A stretch of 53,908 nt of DNA from Nitrospirae bacterium JdFR-81 (lineage in GTDB: Bacteria > Nitrospirota > Thermodesulfovibrionia > UBA6902). The notes under the pieces are model-generated. The model had not been told where the DNA came from. It saw only the letters and a list, made by a program, of their open reading frames with translations, and did no database searches. The stretch is from contig MTOQ01000083.1 of assembly GCA_002011735.1 (NCBI GenBank), positions 1-53,908 of the forward strand, in the 5' to 3' direction. The position numbers and the translations under genes were made by a program. Positions 14,609 through 46,389 of this stretch are shown one piece after another. The number at the start of each line of letters is the position of its first letter. The stretch's first letter is position 1.

Positions 14609-14610
14609 AA

Positions 14611-15318
14611 GTGCGATCATCCATTATATTACCAACATACAAAGAGAGAGAAAATATTGTTGAATTAATCAACACAATAATCAGGATATTGAGAGACGAA
14701 GATGTGGCATTTGAGATCGTGGTGGTTGATGACAATAGCCCTGATGGGACAGCAGAGGCAGTGAGAAAGGAATTCGGTACCGACAAGCGTGTCAGGCTAT
14801 TTGTGAGAAATGATGAGCGAGGACTCGCAACCGCGATAAGATACGGAATAGAGAGATCAAAAGGTGATATTGTAGTAGTAATGGACACAGACTTTAATCA
14901 TGACCCGCGAATGATACCCCAAATGATCGAGCTTCTAAAATATTACGACATGGTTATAGGTTCTCGATTTGTGCTTGGTGGAGGCATGGAGGACCGCTTT
15001 CGATATTATTGTAGTGCCATATATACGATATGGCTCAGATTCTTTCTTGGTATACATATAAAGGACAAGTTAAGTGGTTACTTCTCCATAAAAAGGGAGG
15101 CCCTAAACAGCCTGGATATGGATTCTATATTTCAGGGATATGGCGATTATTTTATGAGACTATTGCTAAAGGCACAAAAAAGAGGGTTCAGAATGTTAGA
15201 GGTTCCGACATTTTATAGATTGCGTAAGGCAGGGCATAGTAAGACAAACTTTATAGAGGTGTTATATAAATATACTATATCAGCTATAAGGATATTCTTC
15301 TCCAAAGATAGATGGTAG
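14611..15318 (+). CDS. GT2 glycosyltransferase, dolichyl/polyprenyl-phosphate sugar synthase-like (DPM1 type)
   Basis: This family moves a sugar from a nucleotide donor to polyprenyl phosphate on the cytoplasmic face. The protein has the GT2 opening SIILPTYKERENI, DDNSPDGTAEAV, and the DxD-type motif VVMDTDFNHDPRMIP, then LSGYFSIKREA and the C-terminal FYRLRKAGHSK. At about 236 residues with no C-terminal membrane helices it resembles short DPM1 proteins. I start at the GTG at 14611, just after the upstream stop, because the family opens a few residues before SIILPTY; a GTG at 14575 is possible. The product could feed the GT-C protein encoded next. Confidence 0.85.
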   Translation: MRSSIILPTYKERENIVELINTIIRILRDEDVAFEIVVVDDNSPDGTAEAVRKEFGTDKRVRLFVRNDERGLATAIRYGIERSKGDIVVVMDTDFNHDPRMIPQMIELLKYYDMVIGSRFVLGGGMEDRFRYYCSAIYTIWLRFFLGIHIKDKLSGYFSIKREALNSLDMDSIFQGYGDYFMRLLLKAQKRGFRMLEVPTFYRLRKAGHSKTNFIEVLYKYTISAIRIFFSKDRW

Positions 15319-15349
15319 ACTCTTCTTTTAACTGTCTTTGTTAATTATT

Positions 15350-16879
15350 ATGTCGAAAGATAAGATATTTATACTACTTGGTATAATTGTCATGGGGGCA
15401 TGTCTGCGATTTTATGGATTGGACAGACAGCCCCTATGGTTTGATGAGGTATTTGAGACAACTTCTTTCCAGCGTCAGTTTCTCCATGACAGGACCATGA
15501 TAACACCAAGCACACCACCGCTCAATTCTTTCTTTGTTTATCCAATTACAAGGATATTCCCAGATAATGACCTTGCCCTCAGAATGATCCCTTTTACCTT
15601 TGGTGTAATAAGTATACCACTGTTATTCCTGTTAGGCAGAAGAGTGATTAACGAAAGAGCCGGCCTTATAGCCTCTTACCTGCTCGCTATATCCCCGTTT
15701 CATATATGGTATTCCCAGGAAGTGCGGATGTATGCATTACAATGGATGTTGGCGCTTATATCGCTGATCTTCTTCTTCAGGGCACTTCAGGAACGGAATT
15801 ATATCAATTATATCGGATATATCGTAAGCACGGTCTTGGGATTATACACTTTACAACTCGCGATATTCCTGCTGGTCATCCAGGGTGTGTATCTCCTGCT
15901 ATTCTTCAGACACCACAGGGCAAGACTATCGGTATGGATATTTGTTTTTACTATGGTAGTCCTCCTTTATTCACCGTGGATAATCTATCAGTTACTCTAT
16001 TTAACAGACAGAGGCACTTCGTTTCCAAAAGAAACAAATCTATTAACTTTCATTCCTTATACTTTCTTCAGTTATTTTGCAGGCTACAGCATTGGACCAT
16101 CTTTGAGAGAACTACACTTAAATCCTTCGATCAAAACCATAAAACCCTACATACCTATAATCACCCTTTTGATGTTGTTATATAGTTTAATATTTTTATA
16201 TGGCATATCTCGATTAACGAAGGATGTGCCCAAATTGATATTCATTTTATTGCTCTCCACTGTCCCTATCGTCGGTCTCTTAACCCTCATCAAGGTTGTC
16301 CCCAAGATGTCCTATAATGTTCGCTATACAGGGATAGCCCTTTTTGGGTTCATCCTTGGGATTTCAGAAGGCATAGAATCTCTTATCCAAAAAAAAGAGG
16401 GGAAACATAATAAGCTCATAGCAATGACCATTCTTTGCATGATGACAGGTCTCAGTGGCTATTCCTACTGGAATTATCAGTTTAATCCAGAATATCATAA
16501 AGAGGATGTGCGAACTGCCGCTTCATACATTGAAGAAAACAGGGAGGAAGGAGACGAGATACTGGTGATTACAAGCACCTGCGCAATAACCCTCAATCGT
16601 TATCTGGATAAGGATCATCGCAGTATCGGCTATCCTCCACTCGATACAAACAACAGAGACGAGGTGATCAGAAAATTAAGGAGGATAATAGAAGGCAAGA
16701 AACGTCTATGGCTGGTGTTATGCAGGGAATGGTATGAGAAGAATTTAACGAATTATACAAAGCAATGGCTTGATACAAATTACAGGGAGATCAAGGAACT
16801 ACATAGGGATACTGACGAAATCGCCAATTTACAGATATTCTGTTATGATCTTACGAGAGAGAAGAAGACACAGGAATAA
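15350..16879 (+). CDS. GT39/ArnT-like membrane glycosyltransferase (GT-C fold)
   Basis: Around ten or more hydrophobic helices follow a first external loop carrying the conserved acidic pair in LWFDEVFET (Asp32, Glu33), which in PMT/ArnT enzymes sits at the catalytic site. The segment LLAISPFHIWYSQEVRMYAL is also characteristic of the PMT_2 family. A soluble domain of about 100 residues ends the protein. Such enzymes transfer a sugar from a polyprenyl-phosphate donor on the periplasmic side. The gene follows a DPM1-like synthase, a natural donor source. I use the ATG at 15350; a TTG at 15338 would add four residues. Confidence 0.8.
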   Translation: MSKDKIFILLGIIVMGACLRFYGLDRQPLWFDEVFETTSFQRQFLHDRTMITPSTPPLNSFFVYPITRIFPDNDLALRMIPFTFGVISIPLLFLLGRRVINERAGLIASYLLAISPFHIWYSQEVRMYALQWMLALISLIFFFRALQERNYINYIGYIVSTVLGLYTLQLAIFLLVIQGVYLLLFFRHHRARLSVWIFVFTMVVLLYSPWIIYQLLYLTDRGTSFPKETNLLTFIPYTFFSYFAGYSIGPSLRELHLNPSIKTIKPYIPIITLLMLLYSLIFLYGISRLTKDVPKLIFILLLSTVPIVGLLTLIKVVPKMSYNVRYTGIALFGFILGISEGIESLIQKKEGKHNKLIAMTILCMMTGLSGYSYWNYQFNPEYHKEDVRTAASYIEENREEGDEILVITSTCAITLNRYLDKDHRSIGYPPLDTNNRDEVIRKLRRIIEGKKRLWLVLCREWYEKNLTNYTKQWLDTNYREIKELHRDTDEIANLQIFCYDLTREKKTQE

Positions 16880-16885
16880 AGATAG

Positions 16886-17863
16886 ATGATGAACGCACCA
16901 CTTATCTCTGTTATCATCCCGGTTTATAATGCAGCACGGACCCTGAGAGAATGTCTTAAATCTATCTTTGCATCTACCTATCAACACTTTGAAGTCCTGA
17001 TAGTGGACGACCTATCAACAGACGAATCGATAAAGATTGCAAGTGAGTTCCCTTGCAGGATAATCAGTGTAATGAGAAAGAGTGGTCCGGCTGCGGCCAG
17101 AAACCTGGGAGCCTACAATGCAAGGGGCAAAATACTCTTTTTTACTGACTCTGATATAATTATTAAAAGAGACACCATTCAGAAAATCATAGAAGCCATG
17201 GAAGGCAAGGTTGCGGTAACAGGTATGTATTCAAGGAAACCTTATCTAAAAAAGTTCTTTTCTCTTTATCACAATTACTATGCCCACAGGAGCCAGAAGG
17301 AGACAAGCAGTTATACCTTTATGTTTCATACCAGCTGTGGTGCAATCCTTAAAGAGGTCTTTGAAAGGATAGGTGGTTTTAACGAAAACATGAAAAATCC
17401 CACTGTAGAGGATGTGGAGTTTGGCTATAGGCTAATGGAAAATGGATATAGGGTATATCTCGATAAAACTATCCAGGTAACCCATTTTACCAATTATACC
17501 TTCTCAAAACTTATAAAGAGTTATTTCTATAAGAGTAGAGACTGGGCAGAACTGTTATTCTCAAGAACAGAGCGGCTCTTTAAGAACGAAGGATGGGCAA
17601 ACTTTAGAAATGTCTTTATCCTCCTTAGTGCTCTCTCTATTATTCCACTTATCCCACTGTCTTTTTATAATAATCTCTTTCTTTTCTTCCTAATCTCTTT
17701 TGGTCTCTTCTTTATATATCAGAACACTGAGTTTTATAAACTTATTCTTGAGGAAAATCCAATACTTTTAATCCCAGGAATAATCTTTAATTATTTCGTT
17801 AACTTGGTGTTATTTTTTGGCATATGTGCCGGACTCTTAACCGCTCTGAAAAGAAGGTTATAA
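16886..17863 (+). CDS. GT2 family glycosyltransferase with C-terminal membrane segments
   Basis: The GT-A domain starts with SVIIPVYNAARTLRECL and has VDDLSTDES and the DxD motif FTDSDIIIK, then the acceptor-loop ED in NPTVEDVEFGYRLMENGY. About two hydrophobic segments lie in the last 80 residues, which would hold the enzyme at the inner membrane. It probably adds one sugar to a lipid-linked intermediate. Its stop is directly adjacent to the start of the radical SAM gene, with no base between them. Confidence 0.85.
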   Translation: MMNAPLISVIIPVYNAARTLRECLKSIFASTYQHFEVLIVDDLSTDESIKIASEFPCRIISVMRKSGPAAARNLGAYNARGKILFFTDSDIIIKRDTIQKIIEAMEGKVAVTGMYSRKPYLKKFFSLYHNYYAHRSQKETSSYTFMFHTSCGAILKEVFERIGGFNENMKNPTVEDVEFGYRLMENGYRVYLDKTIQVTHFTNYTFSKLIKSYFYKSRDWAELLFSRTERLFKNEGWANFRNVFILLSALSIIPLIPLSFYNNLFLFFLISFGLFFIYQNTEFYKLILEENPILLIPGIIFNYFVNLVLFFGICAGLLTALKRRL

Positions 17864-19009
17864 ATGGACTTTGAAGGTAAGATTAAATTTCTGACTAAGG
17901 TTATAGGGCACGGCAAAAGAGTTTTCTATAAAAAGGGAGCTTTACCTATATATCTCATCCATTTTGTAACGGAGCGGTGTAATGCAAGATGTTTACACTG
18001 TCTTGGAAGCTTCACATCAACAACAAAGAACGATGAACTTACCATTGATGAGATAGAAAGGGTATCGCGCACACTTGGCCCTATATTCTTTCTCCTTCCC
18101 ACAGGGGGAGAGCCTTTCCTTAGAAAAGATCTGCCAGAGATAATCCGCATCTATTACATGAATAATGCCCTCAGGAAGGTTGGTATGCCAACCAACGGCT
18201 CTCTGACAGAAACAGCAGTAAAAGGTGTCAGGAAGATCCTTGAGATAGGTAAGGACCTTCACCTCGGGGTTGATATCTCTATAGATGGCATAGGAGAAGA
18301 CCACGACAGGATAAGAAATTTTCCTGGCCTATTCGAAAAGGCTGTAACAACATATAGAGAACTGAAAAGACTCGAAAGAGAGTATGACAACTTCAATGTA
18401 TGCATTGAGATAACAATATCACATTTTAATCAGGATAAATTGATGGATATATATAGTTACTTCCTGAATGAACTGAAGATTGACAACCTTATCATAAGGA
18501 TTGTACGAGGATCGCCGAGAGACCCGAGGGCAAAGGACGTGGATATTGATAAATTTGAAAAATTTTCAAAAAGGGTTGAAGATGATATCATCACCAAAAG
18601 ACTCCCTGGATATTCCAATTTCCCCCTGAGTAATTTTGTGATTGCAAGGGACATAATAGGAAGGAGACTTACTATCAAGCTCCTTCGTGAGAGAAAATAT
18701 CAGATCCCCTGTTATGCAGGGAATCTCACCGGTGTATTGAGAAGTAACGGAGATGTGTATCCATGTGAGCTTTTAGAAGAAAAATTTGGGAATCTTAGAG
18801 AAGTAAACTATAATTTTAAAGAGCTGTGGCTCTCAGAAAAGGCCGAACATATAAGAAGACAGATTATAAAGACCAAATGTTTCTGCACCCATGAATGTTT
18901 TATTACAAACAACATCCTATTTAATCCATTAATGTTTCCAGCGGTGATTAAGGAATGGATGAGACTAAGACTGCGAAGAAACAACTTAGAGAGGATTACA
19001 GAGGCTTAA
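17864..19009 (+). CDS. Radical SAM/SPASM-domain enzyme (1 of 3)
   Basis: The radical SAM cluster motif CNARCLHC gives Cys39, Cys43 and Cys46, the three ligands of the SAM-binding [4Fe-4S] cluster. The GGEP motif in LLPTGGEPFLRKDLPEI binds SAM. The C-terminal part has the SPASM pattern: a Cys in CYAGN, NGDVYPCELLEEKFGNL, and CFCTHEC, for auxiliary iron-sulfur clusters. At 381 residues it matches SPASM enzymes such as PqqE or anSME in layout, yet no precursor peptide is nearby. Its neighbours are glycosyltransferases, so a sugar or lipid carrier is a likelier substrate (inference). The last 55 bases overlap the next gene if that gene starts at 18955. Confidence 0.85.
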   Translation: MDFEGKIKFLTKVIGHGKRVFYKKGALPIYLIHFVTERCNARCLHCLGSFTSTTKNDELTIDEIERVSRTLGPIFFLLPTGGEPFLRKDLPEIIRIYYMNNALRKVGMPTNGSLTETAVKGVRKILEIGKDLHLGVDISIDGIGEDHDRIRNFPGLFEKAVTTYRELKRLEREYDNFNVCIEITISHFNQDKLMDIYSYFLNELKIDNLIIRIVRGSPRDPRAKDVDIDKFEKFSKRVEDDIITKRLPGYSNFPLSNFVIARDIIGRRLTIKLLRERKYQIPCYAGNLTGVLRSNGDVYPCELLEEKFGNLREVNYNFKELWLSEKAEHIRRQIIKTKCFCTHECFITNNILFNPLMFPAVIKEWMRLRLRRNNLERITEA

Positions 19010-19710
19010 AGACATTGGTTTCCCTTGTTGTCCCTACATACAATGAAAGAGAAAATATAAAACCACTGGCTGATAGTATCTCTTCCCTGTGTGAAAGTAA
19101 CTCCCTCCCGCTTGAACTCATCATTGTGGATGACGATTCCCCTGACGGAACCGGTATCGTGGCGAAATCGCTCAATCATAATATACCCATCAAGGTAATC
19201 ATCAGAAGATGGCGTAGGGGTCTATCCTCTGCAGTGGTTGAAGGCTTTGAGATTGCCGAGGGAGAGATATTTGGGATAATGGATGCAGACCTCAGCCATG
19301 ATTACAGGATAATCCCAGAAATGGTAAAGGCGATAACCCAAGAGGGGTATGACATTGCCCTGGGAAGCCGTTATATCCCTGGAGGAGGGTTCGACAAAAA
19401 CTGGCCATTTAAGAGGAGGCTGCTCTCCTATATAGGGACAAAATTTGCCAAAAAACTGATTCCAGTCAATGACCCATTGAGTGGCTTCATGTTATTCAGG
19501 AAAGACATCCTTACAGGGGTAAAACTGAATACCTATGGATTCAAGATAGCTTTAGAGATACTTGTCAGAACAAGGAATACAAATATCAAGGAGATACCCT
19601 ATGTATTTGTAAATCGTGAAAGGGGCAAAAGCAAGATAGGCCTAAGAACGATGCTTGGCTATTTCTTTCAGCTGTGTGAATTGTATATCTTTAAATATAC
19701 AGGTAAATAA
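18955..19710 (+). CDS. GT2 glycosyltransferase, polyprenyl-phosphate sugar synthase-like (DPM1 type)
   Basis: The motifs LVVPTYNERENI, DDDSPDGTGIVA, IMDADLSHDYRIIPEM, and LSGFMLFRKDI with the C-terminal NRERGKSKIG define a DPM1-like enzyme that charges polyprenyl phosphate with a sugar. It has no C-terminal membrane helices. Start choice: the ATG at 18955 lies inside the radical SAM gene and gives a 20-residue charged leader; a TTG at 19015, with GAGG about ten bases upstream, would fit the family better. Either way it is tightly coupled to both flanking radical SAM genes and is probably a donor source for GT-C enzymes downstream. Confidence 0.85.
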   Translation: MDETKTAKKQLREDYRGLKTLVSLVVPTYNERENIKPLADSISSLCESNSLPLELIIVDDDSPDGTGIVAKSLNHNIPIKVIIRRWRRGLSSAVVEGFEIAEGEIFGIMDADLSHDYRIIPEMVKAITQEGYDIALGSRYIPGGGFDKNWPFKRRLLSYIGTKFAKKLIPVNDPLSGFMLFRKDILTGVKLNTYGFKIALEILVRTRNTNIKEIPYVFVNRERGKSKIGLRTMLGYFFQLCELYIFKYTGK

Positions 19711-19716
19711 ATAAAG

Positions 19717-20790
19717 ATGTCAGCTAAAAGTTATCTCCAGTTATTTAAGGGTGCATTAAAGGCGAGGCTATTCGCCAGGCCATATAAGCTTAACCTCGCC
19801 GTAACATATAGATGCAACTCCAGATGTCTGACATGTCAGATATGGAGAGAATATAAGGCCAATCCAGATATACAAAAAGGGGAACTCAGCCTTGAAGAGT
19901 TCTCCAAGATATTCGAGAGTATTTCTAACGAAATTAGATGGATAAGCCTGACAGGTGGAGAACCATTTCTCAGGGAGGATTTAATCCAGATAGTAACCAC
20001 TGCGTGTAAAAAATTCCACAACCTCGCTTTAATAAGCATTCCCACAAACGGGTTACTACATGAGAGGGTCTTGAGATTTATAGAACATTTAAAAAATAGC
20101 ATGATTGATGGACCTGATATATCCATCTCGTTCAGCATCGATGGACCAAGGGAAATACATGATAGGATCAGGGGTATAAAAGGGGCCTTTGATGCGGTCT
20201 GGAAGACCTATCTTGAATCAAGAAGGATTGCCAATAACCATAACAGATTACATCTTCATATTGAAACTACTATCTCCTCCTTTAATATCTTAGAGATAAA
20301 ACCATTCATTGAGAAAATAAAAAAAGAAGGGCACAGTTTAATAGTTACCATAGCGCACGATGCTTATCTGTATAAGAATACAGGGAATAAGGGTATAACC
20401 ATCAATCTTAAAGACAAAAATACAGAGGAATTCTTTTACTATCTGCAGAAGCGATATTGCTGGTATAAACCTTCACAGCTTATTAACAGGGCCTATATAA
20501 AAAGGATACCAATTTACTTAAAAAATAGTGAAAAACAGGTACTTCCTTGTGCAGCACTGAAAAGTTCATTCGCCATAAATCCCTATGGAGACGTGTTACC
20601 ATGCCTTATGTGGGATAGGGTCTTGGGAAATCTTAGAGAGCATGATCTCGATACAAACAGTATCCTCCGCTCCAGTGAGGCAAAGGAGACACGAAGATGG
20701 ATAGCACAATCCCGTTGCCCCAATTGCTGGACACCGTGCGAGGCAGTCCAGACTTTAATACAACATGCTCCTTTGTCTCTTATCGCGTGA
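19717..20790 (+). CDS. Radical SAM/SPASM-domain enzyme (2 of 3)
   Basis: CNSRCLTC supplies the cluster ligands Cys33, Cys37 and Cys40, and SLTGGEPFLREDLIQI is the SAM-binding strand. The C-terminus carries a SPASM-type set of cysteines: LPCAALKSSFAINPYGDVLPC, then CPNCWTPC. The protein is 357 residues. It follows a DPM1-like gene by six bases and precedes a GT-C gene by about 40 bases, so it sits inside a glycan-building unit rather than a peptide-maturation locus. The reaction is unknown; oxidation, epimerisation or C-C bond chemistry on a glycan precursor is conceivable, but nothing in the sequence decides this. Confidence 0.85.
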   Translation: MSAKSYLQLFKGALKARLFARPYKLNLAVTYRCNSRCLTCQIWREYKANPDIQKGELSLEEFSKIFESISNEIRWISLTGGEPFLREDLIQIVTTACKKFHNLALISIPTNGLLHERVLRFIEHLKNSMIDGPDISISFSIDGPREIHDRIRGIKGAFDAVWKTYLESRRIANNHNRLHLHIETTISSFNILEIKPFIEKIKKEGHSLIVTIAHDAYLYKNTGNKGITINLKDKNTEEFFYYLQKRYCWYKPSQLINRAYIKRIPIYLKNSEKQVLPCAALKSSFAINPYGDVLPCLMWDRVLGNLREHDLDTNSILRSSEAKETRRWIAQSRCPNCWTPCEAVQTLIQHAPLSLIA

Positions 20791-20833
20791 GCTTTATGCC
20801 CTGTTTATTTTGAATCTATAATCTCGATTGGAG

Positions 20834-22303
20834 ATGCAAGTGTCTGGAAGGTTTTGGGATAACAAAAAAACTGTCATATCATTGACCATAATCCTTATAT
20901 TAGGCTCCATATTGAGATTTTATGGTCTTGATATTCAATCATTCTGGTATGACGAACTCTTTACCTGGAAGATGAGCAATCAGGATAGTATGAGAGAGGT
21001 CATTAACACCGTTCGTCATCATGATGGGCTTCCACCTCTACACCAGTTAATTACATATTTCATTTTAAGATATGTTGGAGATTCCGAATCAATATTAAGA
21101 TTCCCTTCTGCCATCTTTGGCGTTTTATCGATCCTGGCCATATTTCTCATAGGTGTCCGTCTCTATTCATATAGAGAAGGTCTGATAGCATCTGCTTTTA
21201 TGGCTGTATTATGGACACCTATCTCCTTCAGTCAGGAATTACGCGCATACTCCATGTTGCTTTTATTCACCATGCTATCAACCTATTACTGGCTATCAAT
21301 ACTATGGGCCTTTAATAACAACACCAGTCCATCTCGCTATTCAATCCTCTGCTACATTATATCATCCACTGTATCATCCTATTTACATTATTTTGGTCTT
21401 TACCTCATCCTCCTTCAGGGCTTATTTATAAGCATAGTTTTTATTAGAAAGCAGCGAGTGTGGTCTTATATCTTCTTAATCTATTTTTTGATCTTCCTTA
21501 TCTACCTACCTTGGCTGCCAGGAATGATGGATCAGATAAGCGGATCCGCCTATAGATGGATACCAAAGCCAGAATTGTTCAGATTTATAAAAAACCACCT
21601 GCTATTTCTATTTAATAAATCAAAGATATTAGCCTTAATAGTCCTTCCCATGTATCTCTTTATCTTCGTCCACATCTTTTATAACATCTTAAGAGCCAAA
21701 AAATACAATAATATGAGAGAACTTCTGCTCTCTTCTGATATGTTGCTCATTCTATGGCTTGTGACACCATTTATAGGAATGTTCATAAAATCCAAATTAT
21801 CAACACCTATCCTGACAAATCGTAATCTTCTTATTTCCCTCCCTGCTGCCTATCTCTTGCTTTCTCGTGCTGTTACGCAATTACCCATCAAGCAGAAAAC
21901 CCAGACAGTCATCGCCTCTGCTATTATCACCATATTCATCTTTCATACTATCTTTATAAAAAATTATTACACTACACCTATGAAAACACAATACCGTGAG
22001 GCAGTTGAATTTGTTTTGAGACACGATCATAAGTATAAAGGATCAATTATAACCGCTAATACGGATATGATTGACTATTATTTTAAGTTAATGGGCTCAC
22101 GTAGAAGGGTTGAATTATCAGGAGATTATTCGACTATCATCAAAGCAATAAAGAGATTAAGACCTAAATACATATGGTATATATGTGGACACTGGTACTG
22201 TCCTGATGAAGAATATCTCGAGATGCTGAACAGGGATTACACACTAATTGATCATAAAGACTTCTTTACAGCAGGAGTGTGGCTTTATAGGATTAGATCT
22301 TGA
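20834..22303 (+). CDS. GT39/ArnT-like membrane glycosyltransferase (GT-C fold)
   Basis: The protein has about ten or more hydrophobic segments. The first external loop contains SFWYDELFTWK with the acidic pair Asp40/Glu41, the PMT-family catalytic position, and HHDGLPPLHQLITYF with the usual PPL motif after it. It resembles the product of 15350 in layout. It presumably uses a polyprenyl-phosphate sugar, perhaps the product of the DPM1-like enzyme two genes upstream. I use the ATG at 20834; an in-frame TTG at 20828 is an alternative. Confidence 0.78.
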   Translation: MQVSGRFWDNKKTVISLTIILILGSILRFYGLDIQSFWYDELFTWKMSNQDSMREVINTVRHHDGLPPLHQLITYFILRYVGDSESILRFPSAIFGVLSILAIFLIGVRLYSYREGLIASAFMAVLWTPISFSQELRAYSMLLLFTMLSTYYWLSILWAFNNNTSPSRYSILCYIISSTVSSYLHYFGLYLILLQGLFISIVFIRKQRVWSYIFLIYFLIFLIYLPWLPGMMDQISGSAYRWIPKPELFRFIKNHLLFLFNKSKILALIVLPMYLFIFVHIFYNILRAKKYNNMRELLLSSDMLLILWLVTPFIGMFIKSKLSTPILTNRNLLISLPAAYLLLSRAVTQLPIKQKTQTVIASAIITIFIFHTIFIKNYYTTPMKTQYREAVEFVLRHDHKYKGSIITANTDMIDYYFKLMGSRRRVELSGDYSTIIKAIKRLRPKYIWYICGHWYCPDEEYLEMLNRDYTLIDHKDFFTAGVWLYRIRS

Positions 22304-22323
22304 ATATTATTATGAGTCTCTAA

Positions 22324-24198: not shown

Positions 24199-24257
24199 AG
24201 ATAAATTATTATGGTCCTTTTCAAGGGTTCAGCCTTTGATCACTGAGAACCATGCTC

Positions 24258-25364
24258 TTACAAAGCGGTGACCTCTCTATATACCCTTAAGGTTTCATCC
24301 GCTATCTTTTCCCAGCTATATTCCTCCAAGAGATACCTTATTTGTCTCCTCTTATCAACCTCATCCCACCTGCTGTTAATAAACTGTTTTATTTTTTCTA
24401 CAAGTGCCTCTACGTTGCCTGCTTTAAAAAATCTCTCCCTGCTCAATCTTATACACCTGTTTGCCTGGATATCACTGGCAATGCAAGAGAGACCATAGCT
24501 CATCGCCTCAAGAAGCGCAATTGGTAACCCTTCATAGAAGGAAGGCAGCACGAATAATCCTGCATGTGAATATAATTCATTTAATGGTTGTCCTGTCTGA
24601 AATCCTGTCAGTACAATATCTTTATTCCTTATAGCCTTTTCTTTAAGCTCCATACTATATCTATCCTCATGGTCAGCATCACCAACTATCACAAGCTTCC
24701 AGTCCGCAATCTTTAATCTGTTGAAGGCCTCGATTAAATAATCAAAACCCTTCTCAGGGACAAATCTCCCAACGGCAAGGATATATCTGCCCTTTGTAAG
24801 ACCAAATCTTTTGAGTGCCTCATCACTTTTTGCAGGGATTGGTATATCCACACCATTAGGAATCACAACTGCCTCTATACCATACTTCCTCTTTAATTCT
24901 TCGGCTATATTTACTGCAATGGCTATTACCTTATTAGCGAATTTAACCCCCATCGCTTCACAGAACATAAGGAATATCTTTGCTGGCAGGGGCCATTTCT
25001 TCCTCTTATAATCTGGTCCATGATGGGTCATAACGACCTTCATGCCCATCATTCTCGCAAGAGGGGTAAGAAGTGAGGGGCCTATGGCATGGATGTGCAG
25101 AATATGGGGGTCTAACCTTCTTGCCCTTAAGACACATCTAAATGTATGAACTATTGCCTCAAGATATTTATTTTTAGGGCAACCAACGGTTATTAATTTA
25201 ATACCATTATAATCTTCTACATCAGATTTTATATATGGCCTCCGTGTAAAAACGGAGATATCACATCCGAGTGGAATAAGATGGGTATATAATCTCTCAC
25301 AATGTTTCTCAACACCCCCCTGAACCCTTGGAAATCCACGCAGCCCCGTAACCGCTATCCTCAT
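24258..25364 (-). CDS. GT4 family glycosyltransferase
   Basis: This is a GT-B fold retaining glycosyltransferase. The N-terminal domain starts MRIAVTGLRGFPRVQGGVEK with the glycine-rich loop, and the C-terminal domain holds the donor-binding stretch AVGRFVPEKGFDYLIEAF and the EX7E motif in PSFYEGLPIALLEAMSYG. The length of 368 residues is normal. I start at the ATG at 25364, with AGAAG just upstream, since the family begins at MRIAVTG; upstream in-frame starts add a 14-residue tail that does not fit. It stands alone on the minus strand between two plus-strand runs, divergent from the 25586 gene. Confidence 0.88.
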   Translation of the reverse strand: MRIAVTGLRGFPRVQGGVEKHCERLYTHLIPLGCDISVFTRRPYIKSDVEDYNGIKLITVGCPKNKYLEAIVHTFRCVLRARRLDPHILHIHAIGPSLLTPLARMMGMKVVMTHHGPDYKRKKWPLPAKIFLMFCEAMGVKFANKVIAIAVNIAEELKRKYGIEAVVIPNGVDIPIPAKSDEALKRFGLTKGRYILAVGRFVPEKGFDYLIEAFNRLKIADWKLVIVGDADHEDRYSMELKEKAIRNKDIVLTGFQTGQPLNELYSHAGLFVLPSFYEGLPIALLEAMSYGLSCIASDIQANRCIRLSRERFFKAGNVEALVEKIKQFINSRWDEVDKRRQIRYLLEEYSWEKIADETLRVYREVTAL

Positions 25365-25483
25365 ATCTTCTAAGATACAGGAGAATCCTTGCATATGTAA
25401 ATACATTCATCCCTGTCTACGGAAATACATTCTCCGATAATCCCATCCTTGCATAAATGGCCTTTGTCCCCTAAATAATGAGG

Positions 25484-25520: not shown

Positions 25521-25540
25521 TTTAGTTTTAATTAAAAGGA
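25517..25540 (+). repeat. Inverted repeat at the start of the predicted leader
   Basis: TCCTTTT (25517-25523) pairs with AAAAGGA (25534-25540) across a 10-base loop. The right arm also repeats the AAAAGGAGA word found at 25493-25500, so this short region holds overlapping inverted and direct repeats. It is A+T rich and has no run of T after it, so it is not a standard terminator. Confidence 0.4.
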
Positions 25541-25585
25541 GAGAAGGGGAGTAGTACAAATCGTATAAAACCAGGGCTCTCTAAA

Positions 25586-26776: not shown

Positions 26777-26778
26777 CG

Positions 26779-28203: not shown

Positions 28204-28245
28204 ACCCGAATTACAAAGAATGGAAATCAAGAAGAAATTATCGGA

Positions 28246-29571
28246 ATGTCTCTATTGTCAACCATGATACGCATACACAGGAGAAGGTTTGAATCGGCAA
28301 AGAGAACTCTCGTCTTCCCTGGTGGAACAGAGATAGGATTGGAGATATACAAATCTCTTGTCAATTGCAAAGAGGTAATCCTCTATTCTGCAGGAAGCGA
28401 TGTTCCAAACCACGCACCCTATGTCTTTAAAAGACATCTCTTTGTCCCTGACATTTACAGTGGTGATTGGCTTGCTGTGCTTAACAGGATAATTGCTGAA
28501 CATAAGATAGAGTACATCTTCCCGGCACACGATGATGTAATTATAGCGCTCGCCCAAAACGAGGAGAAGGTAAACGCTAAGATTGTATCCTCTCCCCTTG
28601 CAACGTGTCAGATCTGCAGGTCAAAATTGAAGACATATGAAAGGTTCAAACATCTATTGCCTGTCCCAAAGACTTTTAAGAACATCTCAGATATTGAATC
28701 TTTCCCTGTATTTGTAAAGCCTGACAGAGGACAGGGTTCCATCAACACTTATAAGGCAGTAGATAAAGATACACTCAGGGCATTTCTCAAGATTATCCCT
28801 GACCCGATAATCATGGAATATCTGCCAGGGAAAGAATATACCATTGACTGTTTCAGTCATCGTAAATATGGATTGCTCTTTTGTAGTGGTAGAGAGAGGA
28901 TAAGCATAAAGAGCGGAATCTCAATGGCCAGCAAACCTGTTGAAAACAACATATTTTATGAATATGCGAATATTATCTCCAATGAGCTGGAACTGTATGG
29001 CGCATGGTTCTTCCAGCTTAAAGCAGACGGCTCAGGCAAACTAAAATTACTGGAAATAGCCCCAAGAATAAGCGGGACAATGGCAACACATCGAGTCCTT
29101 GGTGTCAACTTTCCCCTACTCAGTATATATGAAAAAGAAGGATTTGACATAGAGATAATGATTAACTCATATGAGGTCGAGATAAATCGCTCCCTTCAAA
29201 ATAGATATAAACACAACATCAAATATAAGAATGTCTATGTGGACCTTGATGATACCCTTATATTAAACAACAGAATTAATACCCAATTAATCAAATTCTT
29301 GTATCAATGCCTGAATAATGGCCACAGGATAATCCTGATTACCAGAACCGTCAATGATATAAAAACCGTGTTGGATAAGTTCAGGATAAATGGCCTGTTT
29401 GATGAAATCATCTGTCTGAAAAAGGGTGAATCAAAGGCAGATTACATTAAACCAGAGGATTCTATATTCATTGATGATAGTTTCAGTGAACGGAAAGAGG
29501 TATTTGAAAGGCTTGGTATTCCGACCTTTGATTGCAGTATGATTGAATTACTTATTGATGACAGGGCATAG
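28246..29571 (+). CDS. ATP-grasp ligase fused to a HAD-superfamily phosphatase domain
   Basis: Residues 1-310 form an ATP-grasp enzyme: a Rossmann-like pre-domain (TLVFPGGTEIGLEI, then FPAHDDVIIALAQNE), the nucleotide-binding region VFVKPDRGQGSINTYKA, IIMEYLPGKEYTIDC, and the Mg-binding LEIAPRISGTMATHR. Residues from about 328 form a HAD domain with motif I VDLDDTLI (Asp333, Asp335), motif II ILITRT, and motif IV SIFIDDSFSERKEV. ATP-grasp enzymes join a carboxylate to an amine through an acyl phosphate, and HAD domains usually remove phosphate. The fusion suggests ligation and dephosphorylation of one glycan precursor, for instance adding an amino acid to an amino sugar; that is inference. 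Confidence 0.82.
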   Translation: MSLLSTMIRIHRRRFESAKRTLVFPGGTEIGLEIYKSLVNCKEVILYSAGSDVPNHAPYVFKRHLFVPDIYSGDWLAVLNRIIAEHKIEYIFPAHDDVIIALAQNEEKVNAKIVSSPLATCQICRSKLKTYERFKHLLPVPKTFKNISDIESFPVFVKPDRGQGSINTYKAVDKDTLRAFLKIIPDPIIMEYLPGKEYTIDCFSHRKYGLLFCSGRERISIKSGISMASKPVENNIFYEYANIISNELELYGAWFFQLKADGSGKLKLLEIAPRISGTMATHRVLGVNFPLLSIYEKEGFDIEIMINSYEVEINRSLQNRYKHNIKYKNVYVDLDDTLILNNRINTQLIKFLYQCLNNGHRIILITRTVNDIKTVLDKFRINGLFDEIICLKKGESKADYIKPEDSIFIDDSFSERKEVFERLGIPTFDCSMIELLIDDRA

Positions 29572-29573
29572 AG

Positions 29574-30119
29574 ATGACGAACGATGGGATCAGAGTGAGT
29601 CAATTTGATGAGGAATGCTATCTCAGAATTAGAGAAAACATCAGAAGGTTTCTCAAAGAGAGTGCCATAAAATATGACAAAGAGGGGATCCTGATCCTTG
29701 ATATAGCCCCTCAAATCCATGAGGGTGGAAAGACGTATTTTAAAAAAGCCAAGATTGAAACACTTGATATAGATCCTGACTCAAATGCAACATACATAGC
29801 GGATATCACACAGTATAACAGTTTTATAGAAGATGAAAGGTATGACATCGTTATCTGCACAGAGGTTCTTGAACATACATTGAATCCCTTTGCTGCTGTT
29901 AAAGAGATCCATAGGCTATTAAAGCCATCAGGGATTCTGCTTTTAACCGTACCTTTTAATTTCAGAATACACGGGCCGCTCCCAGATTGCTGGCGGTTTA
30001 CAGAACATGGACTCAGGGAGTTGTTAAAAAAATTTACAAACATTAAAATTGAAACATTAGAAACACCAGGGCGTGCATTGATGCCCCTACACTATACAGT
30101 CGAAGCTTTTAAAGCCTGA
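29574..30119 (+). CDS. Small class I methyltransferase-like protein with degenerate motif I
   Basis: The C-terminal part is clearly of the Methyltransf_11 type: FTEHGL and ICTEVLEHTLNPFAAVKEIHRLLKPSG, followed by LTVPFNFRIHGP. Upstream, TLDIDPDS provides the acidic SAM-ribose position. Motif I, however, reads LILDIAPQIHEGG instead of the usual glycine-rich loop. At 181 residues it is small. It may bind SAM in an altered way or have lost activity. It sits two bases after the ATP-grasp-HAD gene and two bases before the next methyltransferase gene, so it is co-expressed with both. Confidence 0.7.
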   Translation: MTNDGIRVSQFDEECYLRIRENIRRFLKESAIKYDKEGILILDIAPQIHEGGKTYFKKAKIETLDIDPDSNATYIADITQYNSFIEDERYDIVICTEVLEHTLNPFAAVKEIHRLLKPSGILLLTVPFNFRIHGPLPDCWRFTEHGLRELLKKFTNIKIETLETPGRALMPLHYTVEAFKA

Positions 30120-30121
30120 CC

Positions 30122-31063
30122 TTGAAGATAAAAACCTACTTGGATAACGAGGCAATCAATAAAGAGATAGAGCTTACCGGCAGAGTTGATGTCGTCTGTA
30201 ATCTGTGCCGGTCCAATGAAGCAGAGATAGTAGCCCGGGAAAATGGGTTTAATATATGTAGATGTTTGAGATGTGGATTGGTCTATGTTAATCCTCAGCC
30301 AACCCCTCAGGAGTTAGACAATTATTATCGGCGATATTATCCTGAAATCAATGAAAAAACGATAGTTCAATGGTATCAGAAAAAGAGCTTTAATCAGGTG
30401 ATCAATATCTTGAAAGAGTATCACCCTAATGGAGGAGACCTGCTGGATGTTGGATGTGGTCTTGGACTATTCCTTGAGGAAATAAGACGAACCCAGGATC
30501 ACTGGAGTTTAGCCGGATTGGACCTGGACAAAAGGGCAATTTCATATGCTACCCGCAGGCATAAGAACATCCAATTTATACACGGTAATATCCTTGATAT
30601 CTCCTTAATCCAGGATGGGTCTTATGATGTAATAACACTCCTTGCATGTCTCGAACATCTACATGATCCCATGAGGGTATTAGAAAGGGCTTACCAGATA
30701 TTAAGACCAGGTGGAACCGTTATCGTCAGGGTCCCTTACATCACACCCTGGCTTTACATAAAAAAATATATACCATTCTTACCTGTAAGATTTCAGGCAC
30801 CCATGCATCTATTCGATTTTTCACCTCGTGTACTTGAAAAGTGTCTGAATAAATCTGGTTACGAGAATATACGAATACTGATAGCTGCTCCAGATATGTA
30901 TCCAAACGTTTTAATCACGGCCATGATCAAGATCATCAAAAGTGTCTCGATATTAATTAATATCATTAGCAGGGGAAAGTATATCCTTCCCCTAAGTGGA
31001 GGACTGGTGGGGATTGGACAAAAGAAGGAGGATCATGAATATCCAGAAGCACAAACTGAGTAA
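30122..31063 (+). CDS. SAM-dependent methyltransferase with N-terminal Cys4 zinc-binding domain
   Basis: Two CxxC pairs (Cys26/29 and Cys48/51, in CNLC and CLRC) form the zinc site of this methyltransferase class, followed by the segment GLVYVNPQPTPQELDNYYRRYY typical of it. The Rossmann domain shows motif I LLDVGCGLGLFLEE, the acidic GLDLDKRAIS, and VITLLACLEHLHDP, then LRPGGTVIVRVP. The start is a TTG at 30122; no ATG or GTG lies early in the frame. The last 29 bases overlap the next gene. It is comparable to the protein at 12050, and both probably methylate sugars or capped glycan ends. Confidence 0.82.
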   Translation: MKIKTYLDNEAINKEIELTGRVDVVCNLCRSNEAEIVARENGFNICRCLRCGLVYVNPQPTPQELDNYYRRYYPEINEKTIVQWYQKKSFNQVINILKEYHPNGGDLLDVGCGLGLFLEEIRRTQDHWSLAGLDLDKRAISYATRRHKNIQFIHGNILDISLIQDGSYDVITLLACLEHLHDPMRVLERAYQILRPGGTVIVRVPYITPWLYIKKYIPFLPVRFQAPMHLFDFSPRVLEKCLNKSGYENIRILIAAPDMYPNVLITAMIKIIKSVSILINIISRGKYILPLSGGLVGIGQKKEDHEYPEAQTE

Positions 31064-32528
31064 ATTTTATATATACAGCACCATTGCTCTCTTGATGATA
31101 TTAACGGGATATTACTATCATAGATTCTTAAAATACTATGATAAAGATTTCACCCCTGAATTCAATCTTTCTGCCCTTGTAATCTTCGTTATATCAGGAG
31201 TTGCAATGATATTTGTCCTTCGCATATTCAAGGCACAAACCAAGATCCTCCCTTTATCGTCCTTTTTTATCCTTACCATAATCCTCTCCCATGACTTTAT
31301 CGTTCCATATGTCTGTGCAGACTGTAAGATGAACATCCTTGTGGGAGAAAGATTTAGGGAGCAAGGACTTGCACAATTCCTGAGAAATTATCATAAACCC
31401 ACCTTATACAAGATCAAGAAGTCTCCGATACTTCATGAAAAATTTTTATTGTATGATGATATCCTTGGCTTCAATTATAAAAAATTGATGGAGGATATCG
31501 AGGATGAGCCTCCTGACATTATCCTTTCAGAAGATACAAAAGAATCAAGAAGTATCAACTGGAGGATAGGCAAACATTCACCATTCTGGTTTATCGTCAT
31601 CGGTTTGATAGAACCATTCACAGGAGACGACTATTTCTCCAAGATAATAATACCTGCAAATTTGGTCGCTATCCTTTACCTGATATCTCTTTATCTTTTT
31701 CTTGGACTCTTTTATAAAAGAGACGAGTATAAGGACAGGATTTCTATTTTATCTCTAATCCTTCTAATGCCTTCCTTTTTAACCAATGCATCACAGATTA
31801 CAAATGATCTGGCACTCGGGTTTTTTCTAACATGGGTATTCTACCTTTTATTTAAAAATAATGAAGCAAGGATCCACATATATGATGCAGCAACAGGTCT
31901 TCTATATTCTTTGGCGGTTTTGTGTAAATTCACCTCGTTAACCATGATACCGATCATTGTGGTACTATACCTGATCAGATTTAAGTCACGGGCTATTACA
32001 AAGCTGGGGCTGTTCTTCTTATGTTTCTGCAGTCTTCCGGCACTTTTGTATAAGGAATTTGGTTATAACATCATCCTGAATGTTATAACAGGAAGTGTGG
32101 AGGAGTACACATTAAAGGCCATAAAGGCGGGAACGATATTTAACCCTCGCACTTTCGGATGGTATATCCTCTATGAACAATACCACTTCGGCATCCCGCT
32201 GGTTACCCTGCTGCTCACACATATGCATAAAATCAGATATTACGTAACGCGCCAGGAGATATTGATATCGTATATGTTTATTGCCTCCTTCTGGATATTA
32301 CCTCTCTTCCTCTGGGGTTCTGGTGTATCACGCCACCTGCTCGGATTCTTACCTTTAATGATACCTCTGCTGGCCCACATCTACAGGAATTGTAGAGAAA
32401 AGGATAGAATGTTAATATCCACTGTCATATTCCTGCTCCTAAATAATTTACTGGTACTCATACATGAAGGCATCATAATGGCAGGTTTTTATCACGATAA
32501 TTTCCACACCTCATATTGGATCTATTAG
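31035..32528 (+). CDS. Multi-span membrane protein, GT-C glycosyltransferase-like
   Basis: About ten or more hydrophobic segments run through 497 residues. A long first external loop (about residues 70-190) contains ADCKMNILVGERFREQGL and later NWRIGKHSPFWFIVIG, and the stretch MPSFLTNASQITNDLALGF matches a pattern common in PMT-like glycosyltransferases. The ATG at 31035 is chosen because a strong AAGGAGG lies at 31025-31031; an upstream in-frame ATG at 30996 has no such site. It ends the second plus-strand run, converging on the minus-strand operon with 14 bases between. Confidence 0.65.
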   Translation: MNIQKHKLSKFYIYSTIALLMILTGYYYHRFLKYYDKDFTPEFNLSALVIFVISGVAMIFVLRIFKAQTKILPLSSFFILTIILSHDFIVPYVCADCKMNILVGERFREQGLAQFLRNYHKPTLYKIKKSPILHEKFLLYDDILGFNYKKLMEDIEDEPPDIILSEDTKESRSINWRIGKHSPFWFIVIGLIEPFTGDDYFSKIIIPANLVAILYLISLYLFLGLFYKRDEYKDRISILSLILLMPSFLTNASQITNDLALGFFLTWVFYLLFKNNEARIHIYDAATGLLYSLAVLCKFTSLTMIPIIVVLYLIRFKSRAITKLGLFFLCFCSLPALLYKEFGYNIILNVITGSVEEYTLKAIKAGTIFNPRTFGWYILYEQYHFGIPLVTLLLTHMHKIRYYVTRQEILISYMFIASFWILPLFLWGSGVSRHLLGFLPLMIPLLAHIYRNCREKDRMLISTVIFLLLNNLLVLIHEGIIMAGFYHDNFHTSYWIY

Positions 32529-32542
32529 TTCCCTCTTTATCG

Positions 32543-33484
32543 TTAAGAATCATCCTGTTTTTCTTCATCACTTAAATTCTGGAGTTGATAATCCAATTCT
32601 TGAAAATGTCGTGATATGGTGTGAAGAACCAAGCCAAAGAATATTATAAGCACACCACACAGGATCAACCCCACTGATAAAATGGTTGAAGGGATACGAT
32701 GGATATAGCCGGTTAAAAGGAACTCCCGCATAACCATAATACCAGGGATGAGACCAATAGCTATAAATGTTAATCCCACTAAGCCAAATGCTGTGAACGG
32801 TTTATAATCCCTTAATAAGGCAAAGATGGTGTTAAATATTAACAGCCCATCCTTAAATATCCTGATCTTCGATCTGCTTCCTTCAGGTCTTGGCACAAGA
32901 TCCACTGGCACCTCAAGGATTCGATAACCCCTCTCTATACTCTTCACAGTGAGCTCTGTCTCGATCTCAAAGCCACGACTGAGAAGGGGTAAGTACTTTA
33001 CAATGCGCCTATTAAATGCCCTGTAACCTGACAGGAGATCCGTAATATTCACCCTGAATATAGTATTAAGTAAAAAGAGGAATATCTTGTTTCCCACCAA
33101 ACTCAAAGGTTTGAATTCGCTCCTTGACATGCTATGAAGACGGGAGCCAACCACCATATCAGCCTCATCATCGATAATTGGTTTTATAAGCTCATGAACT
33201 CTATCCGCAGGATATGTCCCGTCTCCATCCACCATCACATATATATCTGCATTAATCTCCCTGAACATTGTCCTGACAACATTCCCCTTTCCCTGTCTCT
33301 TTTCATACCTCACTATTGCCCCTGCCCTCTCTGCTTCAATTGCCGTGTTATCCGTAGAATTATTATCATAAACATATATAGCAGCATTTGGGAGCTGCGC
33401 CTTGAAATCGGAGACCACCTTGGCTATAGTCTTCCCTTCATTGTAACATGGTATGAGTACTGCTATTTTATATTCTTTATCCAT
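32543..33484 (-). CDS. GT2 polyprenyl-phosphate sugar synthase-like with C-terminal membrane helices (GtrB/DPM type)
   Basis: The GT-A domain has AVLIPCYNEGKTIAKVV, YDNNSTDNTAIEA and VMVDGDGTYPADRVHELI with the DxD motif, then MVVGSRLHSM, LSGYRAFNRRIVKYLP and EVPVDLVPRPEGSRSK. Two hydrophobic hairpin helices at about residues 225-285 anchor it, as in GtrB. It probably loads a sugar onto polyprenyl phosphate at the inner face of the membrane. It is the last gene of the long minus-strand run, 36 bases after a GT-C gene that could use its product. Confidence 0.87.
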   Translation of the reverse strand: MDKEYKIAVLIPCYNEGKTIAKVVSDFKAQLPNAAIYVYDNNSTDNTAIEAERAGAIVRYEKRQGKGNVVRTMFREINADIYVMVDGDGTYPADRVHELIKPIIDDEADMVVGSRLHSMSRSEFKPLSLVGNKIFLFLLNTIFRVNITDLLSGYRAFNRRIVKYLPLLSRGFEIETELTVKSIERGYRILEVPVDLVPRPEGSRSKIRIFKDGLLIFNTIFALLRDYKPFTAFGLVGLTFIAIGLIPGIMVMREFLLTGYIHRIPSTILSVGLILCGVLIIFFGLVLHTISRHFQELDYQLQNLSDEEKQDDS

Positions 33485-33520
33485 ATCCGAACCTTCTCTT
33501 CATTCTTCTTATATCTTCCT

Positions 33521-34714
33521 TTACCGTTGTTGTATCTCGATCCTGAGTATCCGTGTCAGTGTAAAGGCTATCCAGAAAAGAAATATCGGGACAATGGGCC
33601 AGAAATATCTGTTTAAGGCAAACAGGAGTGAATTACCTCCAAATGAAATCAAGGCAAATACAATGAAGGTGTACAGCTCGTATGGAATTTTGCTTCTTCC
33701 TACATATGTAGGATATATGCACAACACAGAAAGGACCACAATAAACATATTAGGAACAATGTAAAAATATGTGGATGTCTTCTGTATATCATAAGAGAAT
33801 GGATAATTAAACAGATATCGACCAATGTTAGCCAACCAGTTTCTGAGATATACTGCAGGTTTATTAATAATATTAATAATCGCCCTTCTTTTAAGCTCCT
33901 CATCTATCTGAACAGCTGTAAGACCCTCCATACCCTTAAATATCTCTTTTTTATGTCTTTTAAATACACTCCAATCACCCAGTCCACCCTCAAAATCAGT
34001 AGTCATCAGGTACAAATTAATTCCCCCCGATGTCCCCCAGTAGAAGACCTTACCTGTAAGATTATAGGTATAAAAGAGATAAGGGGTACAAAGGAGAAGC
34101 GCAAACAGGTAGACTAACACGGTCCTTTTAAAAGCCTCCCTCTTTTTCCATAGATATAAAAATATATATATCACCAGGCTACTCAATATTACATAACCAA
34201 AGAATATCTTTGTCAATGCAAGATATCCAAGAAAGATAGATGCTATTAAAATCTGCAGGCCGGGCCTCTTATCTCCACGATATATCCTGCAAAAATGGAA
34301 TAAGAACCCGCATATCAGAAAAATAGCAAGCTGTTCGGTTAGCAGGCGATGAATGTATCGGAGAAGGGGGAAATATAGTCCTAACACATATGAAAACAAT
34401 AGCGCAGACCGTTCTGACATATAAAGGCGGAGCGTATAATAAAAGTAAATGATTGCCAGGAACAAAAATACAGCATTCAGAAGTTTTGCTGTTAACCATG
34501 GTAGCTTTAATAAAGCAAAGGGCAGTAATACAATGGGATAGCCAGGGCCACTCCATAAACTTATCTTTCCTTCTGGTGAATAAAAACCATGGGAGAGATT
34601 GTTGGCAAACTGTACATAACGGGCTTCATCACTTTCAAACCTGTCAACAGATGCTATCAGGATAATAGAAATATAAAGACCCAATAATGGAAGAAACCTT
34701 AGTCTCTCCTTCAC
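33521..34714 (-). CDS. GT-C membrane glycosyltransferase-like protein
   Basis: About nine hydrophobic segments; the first external loop carries DRFESDEARYVQFANNL with Asp29/Glu30 at the PMT-type catalytic position, and SGPGYPIVLLPF follows, as in PMT_2 proteins. The length of 397 residues is short for the family, mainly through a reduced C-terminal soluble domain. The GTG start overlaps the radical SAM stop as TAGTG, which implies translational coupling. With the GT2 gene after it, it forms a donor-synthase and transferase pair. Confidence 0.72.
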   Translation of the reverse strand: MKERLRFLPLLGLYISIILIASVDRFESDEARYVQFANNLSHGFYSPEGKISLWSGPGYPIVLLPFALLKLPWLTAKLLNAVFLFLAIIYFYYTLRLYMSERSALLFSYVLGLYFPLLRYIHRLLTEQLAIFLICGFLFHFCRIYRGDKRPGLQILIASIFLGYLALTKIFFGYVILSSLVIYIFLYLWKKREAFKRTVLVYLFALLLCTPYLFYTYNLTGKVFYWGTSGGINLYLMTTDFEGGLGDWSVFKRHKKEIFKGMEGLTAVQIDEELKRRAIINIINKPAVYLRNWLANIGRYLFNYPFSYDIQKTSTYFYIVPNMFIVVLSVLCIYPTYVGRSKIPYELYTFIVFALISFGGNSLLFALNRYFWPIVPIFLFWIAFTLTRILRIEIQQR

Positions 34715-35781
34715 TATCTCTGATGCTCTTTCTCCTTAAAAAGATTGGATTGTAGTATTTCTTTATATCCCCGCGTGGGTAGACACAGGGACGGAGGCCT
34801 GTGGAATAAGACACGCAATTTATTCTTCAAGACCCACATAGCAGGCCTGTAAAGATACTTCTTCATTGCAGGAACAGCACTCCCAACCATCCAGCATTGT
34901 CTCTGACAATTTTTAACTGCGTTCCTCACCATCTCGGCACTCTCACTGCTCCATATCTCTTCAAAAGACATAACCTTGATGTTTCCCATCGATAACTTCT
35001 CTTCCATCCCATTACAGGCAAGGACATCACCCCACGGATCTATGAAGCATGACTCTGTACCCATTTCGCACCTTAAAAATCTTTCTCCGCCATAGATGTA
35101 GTTCATCAGTCCATAATTAAAATATGCCCTGAACCACTTCTTTATAGACCTTGATCTTAGGAGTTCTGTAACAAGCTTAGAAAATTCTTCACATACGGTG
35201 TCCTTATCCTGAATCCTGTTATCCCACTTGTGGAAATAATGAGAGTTATGTACCGTTGCTGTTGCAAACTCATAATCAAGGGCATTTGAAAGCTCATAAA
35301 GGGGCAAGAGATCCTTACAATTTATATCCTGTACCGTCATGGCAAAACCTATATCCTTTATTCCCATTCTTCTCAGGGTAAGGAGTGTCCTCAGGCCTCT
35401 ATCGAACCCGTTAGGTATACCCCTTATCATATCGTTTGTCTTCTGAAGCCCTTCTATACTGATCCTTATCCCTGTATCAGGGAATCTCTCACAGAGTTTT
35501 ACAATCCTCTCTGTAAAATAACCGTTTGTACTGATAACTATTCGCTTTGTCTTCCTTCTTACAACCTCTATGATATCCTCTATATCCCTTCTTACAAATG
35601 GTTCACCACCTGTGATATTCACAAATCTGAGACCCGAGGGGATCTTCTCCAGGTCTTCAACTGTTATCTCCTCGCTTGCCCTTGAAGGATTCTGCCAGAC
35701 ATTGCACATATTGCATCTGGCATTGCACCTGTAAGTGACAATTATACATATCTCTTTTGGCTTTAACATATGCCTATTCAT
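34714..35781 (-). CDS. Radical SAM/SPASM-domain enzyme (3 of 3)
   Basis: CNARCNMC provides Cys19, Cys23 and Cys26 for the SAM-cleaving cluster, and NITGGEPFVRRDI is the SAM-binding strand. The C-terminal region has cysteines in LRCEMGTESCFIDPWGDVLAC and NCQRQC, a SPASM-like auxiliary-cluster pattern, followed by a basic tail of about 50 residues. It is coupled to the downstream GT-C gene by a one-base overlap and follows the O-antigen ligase-like genes after 23 bases. No small peptide gene is nearby. The substrate is unknown; its constant association with glycan assembly suggests a sugar or lipid-linked intermediate. Confidence 0.85.
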   Translation of the reverse strand: MNRHMLKPKEICIIVTYRCNARCNMCNVWQNPSRASEEITVEDLEKIPSGLRFVNITGGEPFVRRDIEDIIEVVRRKTKRIVISTNGYFTERIVKLCERFPDTGIRISIEGLQKTNDMIRGIPNGFDRGLRTLLTLRRMGIKDIGFAMTVQDINCKDLLPLYELSNALDYEFATATVHNSHYFHKWDNRIQDKDTVCEEFSKLVTELLRSRSIKKWFRAYFNYGLMNYIYGGERFLRCEMGTESCFIDPWGDVLACNGMEEKLSMGNIKVMSFEEIWSSESAEMVRNAVKNCQRQCWMVGSAVPAMKKYLYRPAMWVLKNKLRVLFHRPPSLCLPTRGYKEILQSNLFKEKEHQR

Positions 35782-42890: not shown

Positions 42891-42915
42891 AATTCTCTCC
42901 TCTCCCTATTATTTC

Positions 42916-46373: not shown

Positions 46374-46389
46374 TTAAAAAATGGCCAGT

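Follow-up and report, generated by a model that had tools for sequence, protein, structure and literature searches.

Candidate sugar-modifying radical SAM enzymes in a bacterial glycan island: three putative families, each with its own glycosyltransferase partner

The analysed window, 53,908 nucleotides in all, is one contig of a 2.05-Mb draft genome. From about 8.8 kb (8500) to 53908 it is AT-richer, the GC content falling from approximately 51% to 39% and remaining low throughout. The drop lies just past hrcA-grpE-dnaK-dnaJ. The low-GC region 8500-53908 is a glycan island, perhaps acquired from elsewhere, and contains genes for glycosyltransferases, GT-C proteins, Wzy-like proteins and DegT aminotransferases. 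The stretch 35805-40878 holds two tandem duplications, one of a Wzy-like gene (35805 and 37114) and one of a GT4 gene (38403 and 39625). Gene calling followed a plain longest-ORF rule.

Three genes of the island had been described in an initial annotation as radical SAM/SPASM genes: rSAM_A (17864-19009, plus strand, 381 aa), rSAM_B (19717-20790, plus strand, 357 aa) and rSAM_C (34714-35781, minus strand, 355 aa), below A, B and C. Indeed, all three are intact ORFs with both the Radical_SAM (PF04055) and the SPASM (PF13186) domain above the Pfam cut-off. All contain the CX3CX2C motif, which along with PF04055 identifies them as members of the radical SAM superfamily. The Pfam matches and the cysteine map describe A as a radical SAM protein with a shortened SPASM/twitch domain, B as radical SAM/SPASM-like, and C as a radical SAM protein with a four-cysteine twitch-like domain.

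The CX3CX2C motif is at C39 in A, C33 in B and C19 in C. It is followed by cysteines 283, 301, 339, 341 and 345 in A, by 278, 296, 334, 337 and 341 in B, and by C238, C256, C292 and C296 in C. The cysteines are invariant across 41 A-family homologues and 32 C-family sequences. Family C has exactly four invariant auxiliary cysteines and no other invariant cysteine, and A and B have a fifth conserved cysteine beyond the four. The AuxII set, CX2CX5CX3C plus a final cysteine, is absent from the cysteine maps of A, B and C, where the corresponding region is shortened to CXCX3C, CX2CX3C and CX3C, respectively. CX2CX5CX3C-like sets with the last cysteine are present in the reference proteins ScmE, ScmF, CbpB, MftC and an AhbD-like protein. 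Judged by the AuxII cysteines, A, B and C fall outside the SPASM enzymes with two auxiliary clusters. Their truncated SPASM domains assign them to the twitch class, with a single predicted auxiliary cluster, for which C has four candidate cysteine ligands.

All three proteins score far below the cut-offs of every curated NCBIfam family. The best scores are 84.6 bits for A (AhbD, cut-off 500), 71.6 for B (PTO1314, cut-off 306) and 80.5 for C (WgkB, cut-off 650). The method itself works, since SPASM proteins encoded elsewhere in the genome pass their own cut-offs (ScmF 612, ScmE 647, CbpB 494); the AhbD-like protein, with 429 against 500, is under its cut-off. In a tree of 50 rows, A, B, C and their relatives are split from the peptide, heme and mycofactocin enzymes (95/93). 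C belongs to a clade of 13 rows (100/98) spanning Nitrospirota, Omnitrophota, Thermodesulfobacteriota and Bacillota. The clade of A has 16 rows (100/99) and includes a Parabacteroides gene; the branches are long, which makes finer placement unsure. Going by sequence, the enzymes represent three uncharacterised families, each of which has its own glycosyltransferase partner in relatives.

The partner of A is a GT2 gene with C-terminal transmembrane (TM) segments (16886-17863, plus strand), which lies directly upstream with a gap of 0. Genes of the GT2_16886 type directly adjoin A on the same strand in 41 of 46 relatives, in most cases separated from it or overlapping it by a few bases. Here and below, neighbours in relatives were identified by the best BLAST match to window proteins, and the compared loci are mutually related and form a non-random sample. 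Downstream, A overlaps by 55 bases a DPM1-like GT2 gene (18955-19710, plus strand) situated between A and B, which is not conserved beside A. Of 120 relatives, 76 have a homologue of A; the A model gave only weak matches in 18 named genomes belonging to other phyla. The source genome contains a second GT2-A pair on contig C9, with Ppx/GppA and a menaquinone gene in its surroundings. Usually, A is found away from glycan islands, for example adjoining a trigger factor gene or a menaquinone gene, and thus its product may be a glycolipid or other small glycoside rather than a surface polymer. The pairing with the glycosyltransferase is kept in these differing surroundings (41 of 46 loci). In five to seven genomes (including loci L153, L154, L164 and L172) the GT2-rSAM_A pair is followed on the same strand by GlmU-GlmS-type genes, which suggests a link to UDP-GlcNAc. 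Single loci have A in a same-strand run with RmlB/RmlD-type (dTDP-sugar-type) genes (L156) or near a GT9-HAD protein (L138), and the A-like gene of Parabacteroides adjoins a GT28/UGT-type gene.

In nine of ten Nitrospirota relatives of B, a GT9 gene is located directly upstream. No GT9 gene was found near rSAM_B in the window, where B is preceded by GT2 18955 (gap 6) and followed, after 37-43 bases, by a GT-C gene of the PMT_2 type (20828-22303, plus strand). Among the ten relatives, DPM1-like GT2 genes occur nearby in five and GT-C-like genes in seven. The GT-C-like proteins include PMT_2 proteins (L119, L307) and polytopic proteins with TPR tails (L304, L308). A second radical SAM gene follows B in several relatives. 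Loci L123, L304, L305 and L308 contain tandem radical SAM genes, mostly after GT9 and beside TPR-tailed polytopic proteins; in these B-type clusters, a run includes additional radical SAM genes.

Family C is the most widely documented, with at least 571 confirmed relatives in at least six phyla; among the matches listed these are Nitrospirota, Omnitrophota, Auribacterota, Planctomycetota (Scalindua), Thermodesulfobacteriota and Bacillota. A relative at 57% is encoded on a Bacteroidota plasmid. The named relatives at 70-74% among the matches listed are mostly labelled Nitrospirae, which makes it most likely that the source genome, too, belongs to Nitrospirota. The family occurs in gut Lachnospiraceae and in culturable anaerobes (Butyrivibrio hungatei, Eubacterium coprostanoligenes, Desulfosporosinus). 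We compared 97 usable loci, consisting of named loci (the best 80 of at least 571), two plasmid loci and Nitrospirota loci, a few of them duplicates; the 80 named loci are the most similar ones, a non-random set in which Lachnospiraceae predominate.

Two types of GT4 accompany C. Homologues of a GT4 gene with a weak DUF1972 match (24258-25406, minus strand) lie at most five genes from C in 77 of the 97 loci (about 80%), and in the window this gene is 9 kb from rSAM_C. Homologues of the GT4 gene at 38403-39644 and its tandem copy at 39625-40878 (both minus strand) occur within the same distance of C in up to 63 loci (about 65%). Other GT4 genes of the island are rarely the best match near C (50106 three times, 49070 twice, 51236 never in the 97 loci). 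The GT4 proteins of Lachnospiraceae are 33-38% identical to those of the window, and orthology at this distance is unsure. The order GT4_49070, kinase, AlkP44952, GT4_38403, rSAM_C, GT4_24258 is collinear in L108 and in the Scalindua locus L186; the window order GT4_49070, kinase, AlkP44952, GT4_39625, GT4_38403, rSAM_C matches both. The kinase is a thymidylate kinase-like protein (48341-49054, minus strand). AlkP44952 is a PF01663 phosphodiesterase-fold protein (44952-46373, minus strand), encoded upstream of the GT4 pair and rSAM_C and collinear also in L104. The kinase-like, GT4 and phosphodiesterase-fold genes, whose order is kept in L108 and L186, possibly form a sugar-phosphorylating module.

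The initial annotation had placed each of the three enzymes directly beside a DPM1-like GT2 and GT-C proteins. This is correct for B, but A touches no GT-C gene and C does not touch GT2 32543. Moreover, A and B share GT2 18955, and A also touches the membrane-anchored GT2 16886, not named before. A further GT2/GT-C pair, reported at 14611/15350, was confirmed with starts at 14575 and 15338: a DPM1-like GT2 (14575-15318, plus strand; Pfam, NCBIfam) and a PMT_2-type GT-C protein (15338-16879, plus strand; Pfam, TM segments). The AglJ/DPM1-like GT2 at 32543-33484 (minus strand) has two C-terminal TM segments and scores 254 bits against the AglJ model TIGR04182 (cut-off 325); it and GT2 14575 and 18955 all have polyprenyl-phosphate sugar synthase-like scores. 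The polytopic protein downstream of rSAM_C (33521-34714, minus strand, overlap 1) has no Pfam or NCBIfam match. It resembles GT-C proteins by topology only, with about ten TM segments and an acidic motif, and adjoins C in this window alone.

Among the other explanations, the one that survives best is that all three enzymes modify a polyprenyl-phosphate sugar, the product of a DPM1-like GT2, ahead of its transfer by a GT-C protein; even so, we regard it as unlikely. There are nine such GT2 and GT-C genes among the 36 genes of the island. In permutations, both kinds fall within two genes of each radical SAM gene with P = 0.002 by a criterion chosen post hoc, and each radical SAM gene has at least one such neighbour with P = 0.08. 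The relatives, for which co-occurrence was checked, agree in the case of B, where both kinds are frequent, yet the tightest partner even of B is GT9. DPM1-like GT2 genes are near C in only 2 of 97 loci and near A in 1 of 46, and homologues of GTC33521 are near C in 2 of 97. These counts rule out DPM1-like GT2 and GT-C as universal partners for A and C. The partners are family-specific (the GT2_16886 type, GT9, two GT4 types), and thus the single shared system of SPASM enzyme, DPM1-like GT2 and GT-C proposed before gains partial support only, through B; that a lipid-linked sugar is modified prior to GT-C transfer is a possibility only, best for B.

SPASM enzymes are best known for peptide modification, so the three enzymes might act on ribosomal peptides or surface proteins in a RiPP-like manner, with the precursor encoded elsewhere. 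The genome does have genuine peptide systems, ScmE/ScmF and CbpB. The ScmE and ScmF genes, above the cut-off, belong to a SynChlorMet cassette (contig C39, locus L133:9467-11751) and are a genuine peptide-type SPASM pair. The fold is undecided between substrates: ranked by E-value, the first Foldseek match of the C model (pLDDT 90) is the peptide maturase SkfB, with the sugar enzyme BlsE sixth, whereas by TM-score BlsE is at the top (0.64/0.69; others at most 0.59 by query length). The A model has pLDDT 70 and a poor C-terminus, and its fold search is supportive only. On the other hand, NCBIfam peptide-maturase scores do not exceed 81 bits against cut-offs of at least 250. As stated in the initial annotation, no precursor peptide is apparent: clustering of small ORFs around relatives of A and C gave nothing recurrent. 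In A, B and C there is no room for a leader-binding domain N-terminal to CX3CX2C, and the AuxII set is missing. Finally, the partners across many phyla are glycosyltransferases. A peptide substrate is therefore improbable. The earlier preference for glycan synthesis over a known peptide modification thus holds, as relatives adjoin glycosyltransferases and the tree places the enzymes outside the peptide and tetrapyrrole families included in it; neither of the contrary signs named with it, peptide-gene neighbours and placement in a peptide-modifying family, was observed. Another SPASM-containing protein of this genome (contig C18, locus L136:4906-7323, 805 aa) has a radical SAM/SPASM part followed by an ArsM-like methyltransferase part.

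We give equally little credence to the idea that the three enzymes serve the synthesis of a cofactor or lipid core (heme d1, hopanoid, tetraether) and lie near glycosyltransferases by chance. The best NCBIfam match of A is AhbD and its paralogue adjoins a menaquinone gene. However, this match amounts to 84.6 of the required 500 bits, a genuine AhbD-like protein encoded in the genome reaches 429, and A retains its glycosyltransferase partner in differing surroundings. A hopanoid role for A was rejected, as squalene-hopene cyclase (PF13249) was not found in the genome and is rare in the relatives, where A is common.

It is very improbable that C matures sulfatase-fold proteins in the manner of anSME, itself a SPASM enzyme and a fold neighbour of the C model: three sulfatase-fold membrane proteins are encoded upstream in the same run (40911-48378), but in the two active-site stretches found (TTPTVTSLMTG, TIPTTASLMTG) Thr takes the place of the Cys/Ser of the formylglycine motif, and the neighbourhood of C does not conserve the three proteins (AlkP40911 in 1 of 97 loci). 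The three are paralogous, have about five N-terminal TM segments and surround the PF01663 gene. With Thr at the nucleophile position in both motifs found, they are candidate phospho-transferases.

We consider it probable that A, B and C represent twitch-type radical SAM sister families that modify a sugar in surface polysaccharide or glycolipid synthesis, each together with a dedicated glycosyltransferase. Radical chemistry in glycan synthesis gains support from the fact that unrelated glycosyltransferase classes (GT2, GT4, GT9 and, once, GT28) adjoin these enzymes. A would act in step with the membrane-anchored GT2, B with GT9, and C with both GT4 types. SAM would be cleaved by the [4Fe-4S] cluster at CX3CX2C, and the resulting 5'-deoxyadenosyl radical would abstract a hydrogen atom from one of the sugar carbons; the role of the auxiliary cluster would be to take up or tune the electron. 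Our best guess for C, by analogy, is a BtrN-like oxidation or a BlsE-like oxidative decarboxylation, favoured by the presence of four invariant auxiliary cysteines and no others. In A and B, the fifth conserved cysteine leaves room for a cysteine hydrogen donor, and hence epimerisation is possible. The substrate could be a nucleotide sugar or the lipid-linked acceptor of the partner glycosyltransferase. We lean weakly towards a lipid-linked glycan, as C has a strongly basic tail and the GT2 partner of A is membrane-anchored.

A broader interpretation, which we offer tentatively and would rate somewhat below even, is that radical SAM chemistry is a general sugar-tailoring tool in bacterial surface-glycan pathways, with several twitch-type families each serving its own glycosyltransferase class. 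Radical-derived sugars, oxidised, epimerised or decarboxylated, would then be formed on lipid-linked glycan after its assembly, across many phyla and also in gut Lachnospiraceae. To our knowledge, the sugar-acting radical SAM enzymes described so far serve antibiotics and cofactors. If the three families do act on surface glycans, many unusual sugars on bacterial surfaces, in gut bacteria too, originate from radical chemistry that is widespread, and such sugars are unpredictable from nucleotide-sugar genes. Family C is open to testing, being common in culturable anaerobes.

We know of no radical SAM enzyme in glycan systems that combine a polyprenyl-phosphate-sugar synthase with a GT-C protein. 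Such systems, e.g. three-component ones (PMC11127046), have the DPM1-like GT2/GT-C pairing seen at 14575/15338 and 32543/33521. In open-licence papers on radical SAM enzymes with glycosyltransferases or surface polysaccharides, nothing was found on these enzymes beyond a survey of a 36-kb plasmid of Brachyspira hyodysenteriae, where several radical SAM genes are interleaved with glycosyltransferase and rhamnose genes and were guessed to act in LOS synthesis or glycosylation (PMC4267127). The likeness to A, B and C is one of gene arrangement, and the function of those genes is likewise a guess.

MftC, ScmE/ScmF and CbpB share the superfamily and the domain order with A, B and C. However, they have full AuxI and AuxII cysteines and lie on the opposite side of the tree, and MftC, unlike A, B and C, has precursor and chaperone genes alongside. 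BlsE, a cytosylglucuronate decarboxylase (TIGR04466; PDB 7vob), is a radical SAM enzyme that decarboxylates sugar carbon C5 (PMC3715490). It has the CX3CXMC motif in common with C, but C, with 46 bits against the cut-off of 400, is not a member of the TIGR04466 family; moreover, BlsE acts on a free nucleoside in antibiotic synthesis, without a glycosyltransferase module. The twitch-type butirosin dehydrogenase BtrN (PDB 4m7t) has no link to surface glycans; among the fold matches listed it appears for A only, as a weak one (TM 0.42/0.61). With a truncated SPASM domain and a single, four-cysteine auxiliary cluster, it catalyses the two-electron oxidation of an aminocyclitol (PMC9012708), and its cysteine layout resembles that of C.
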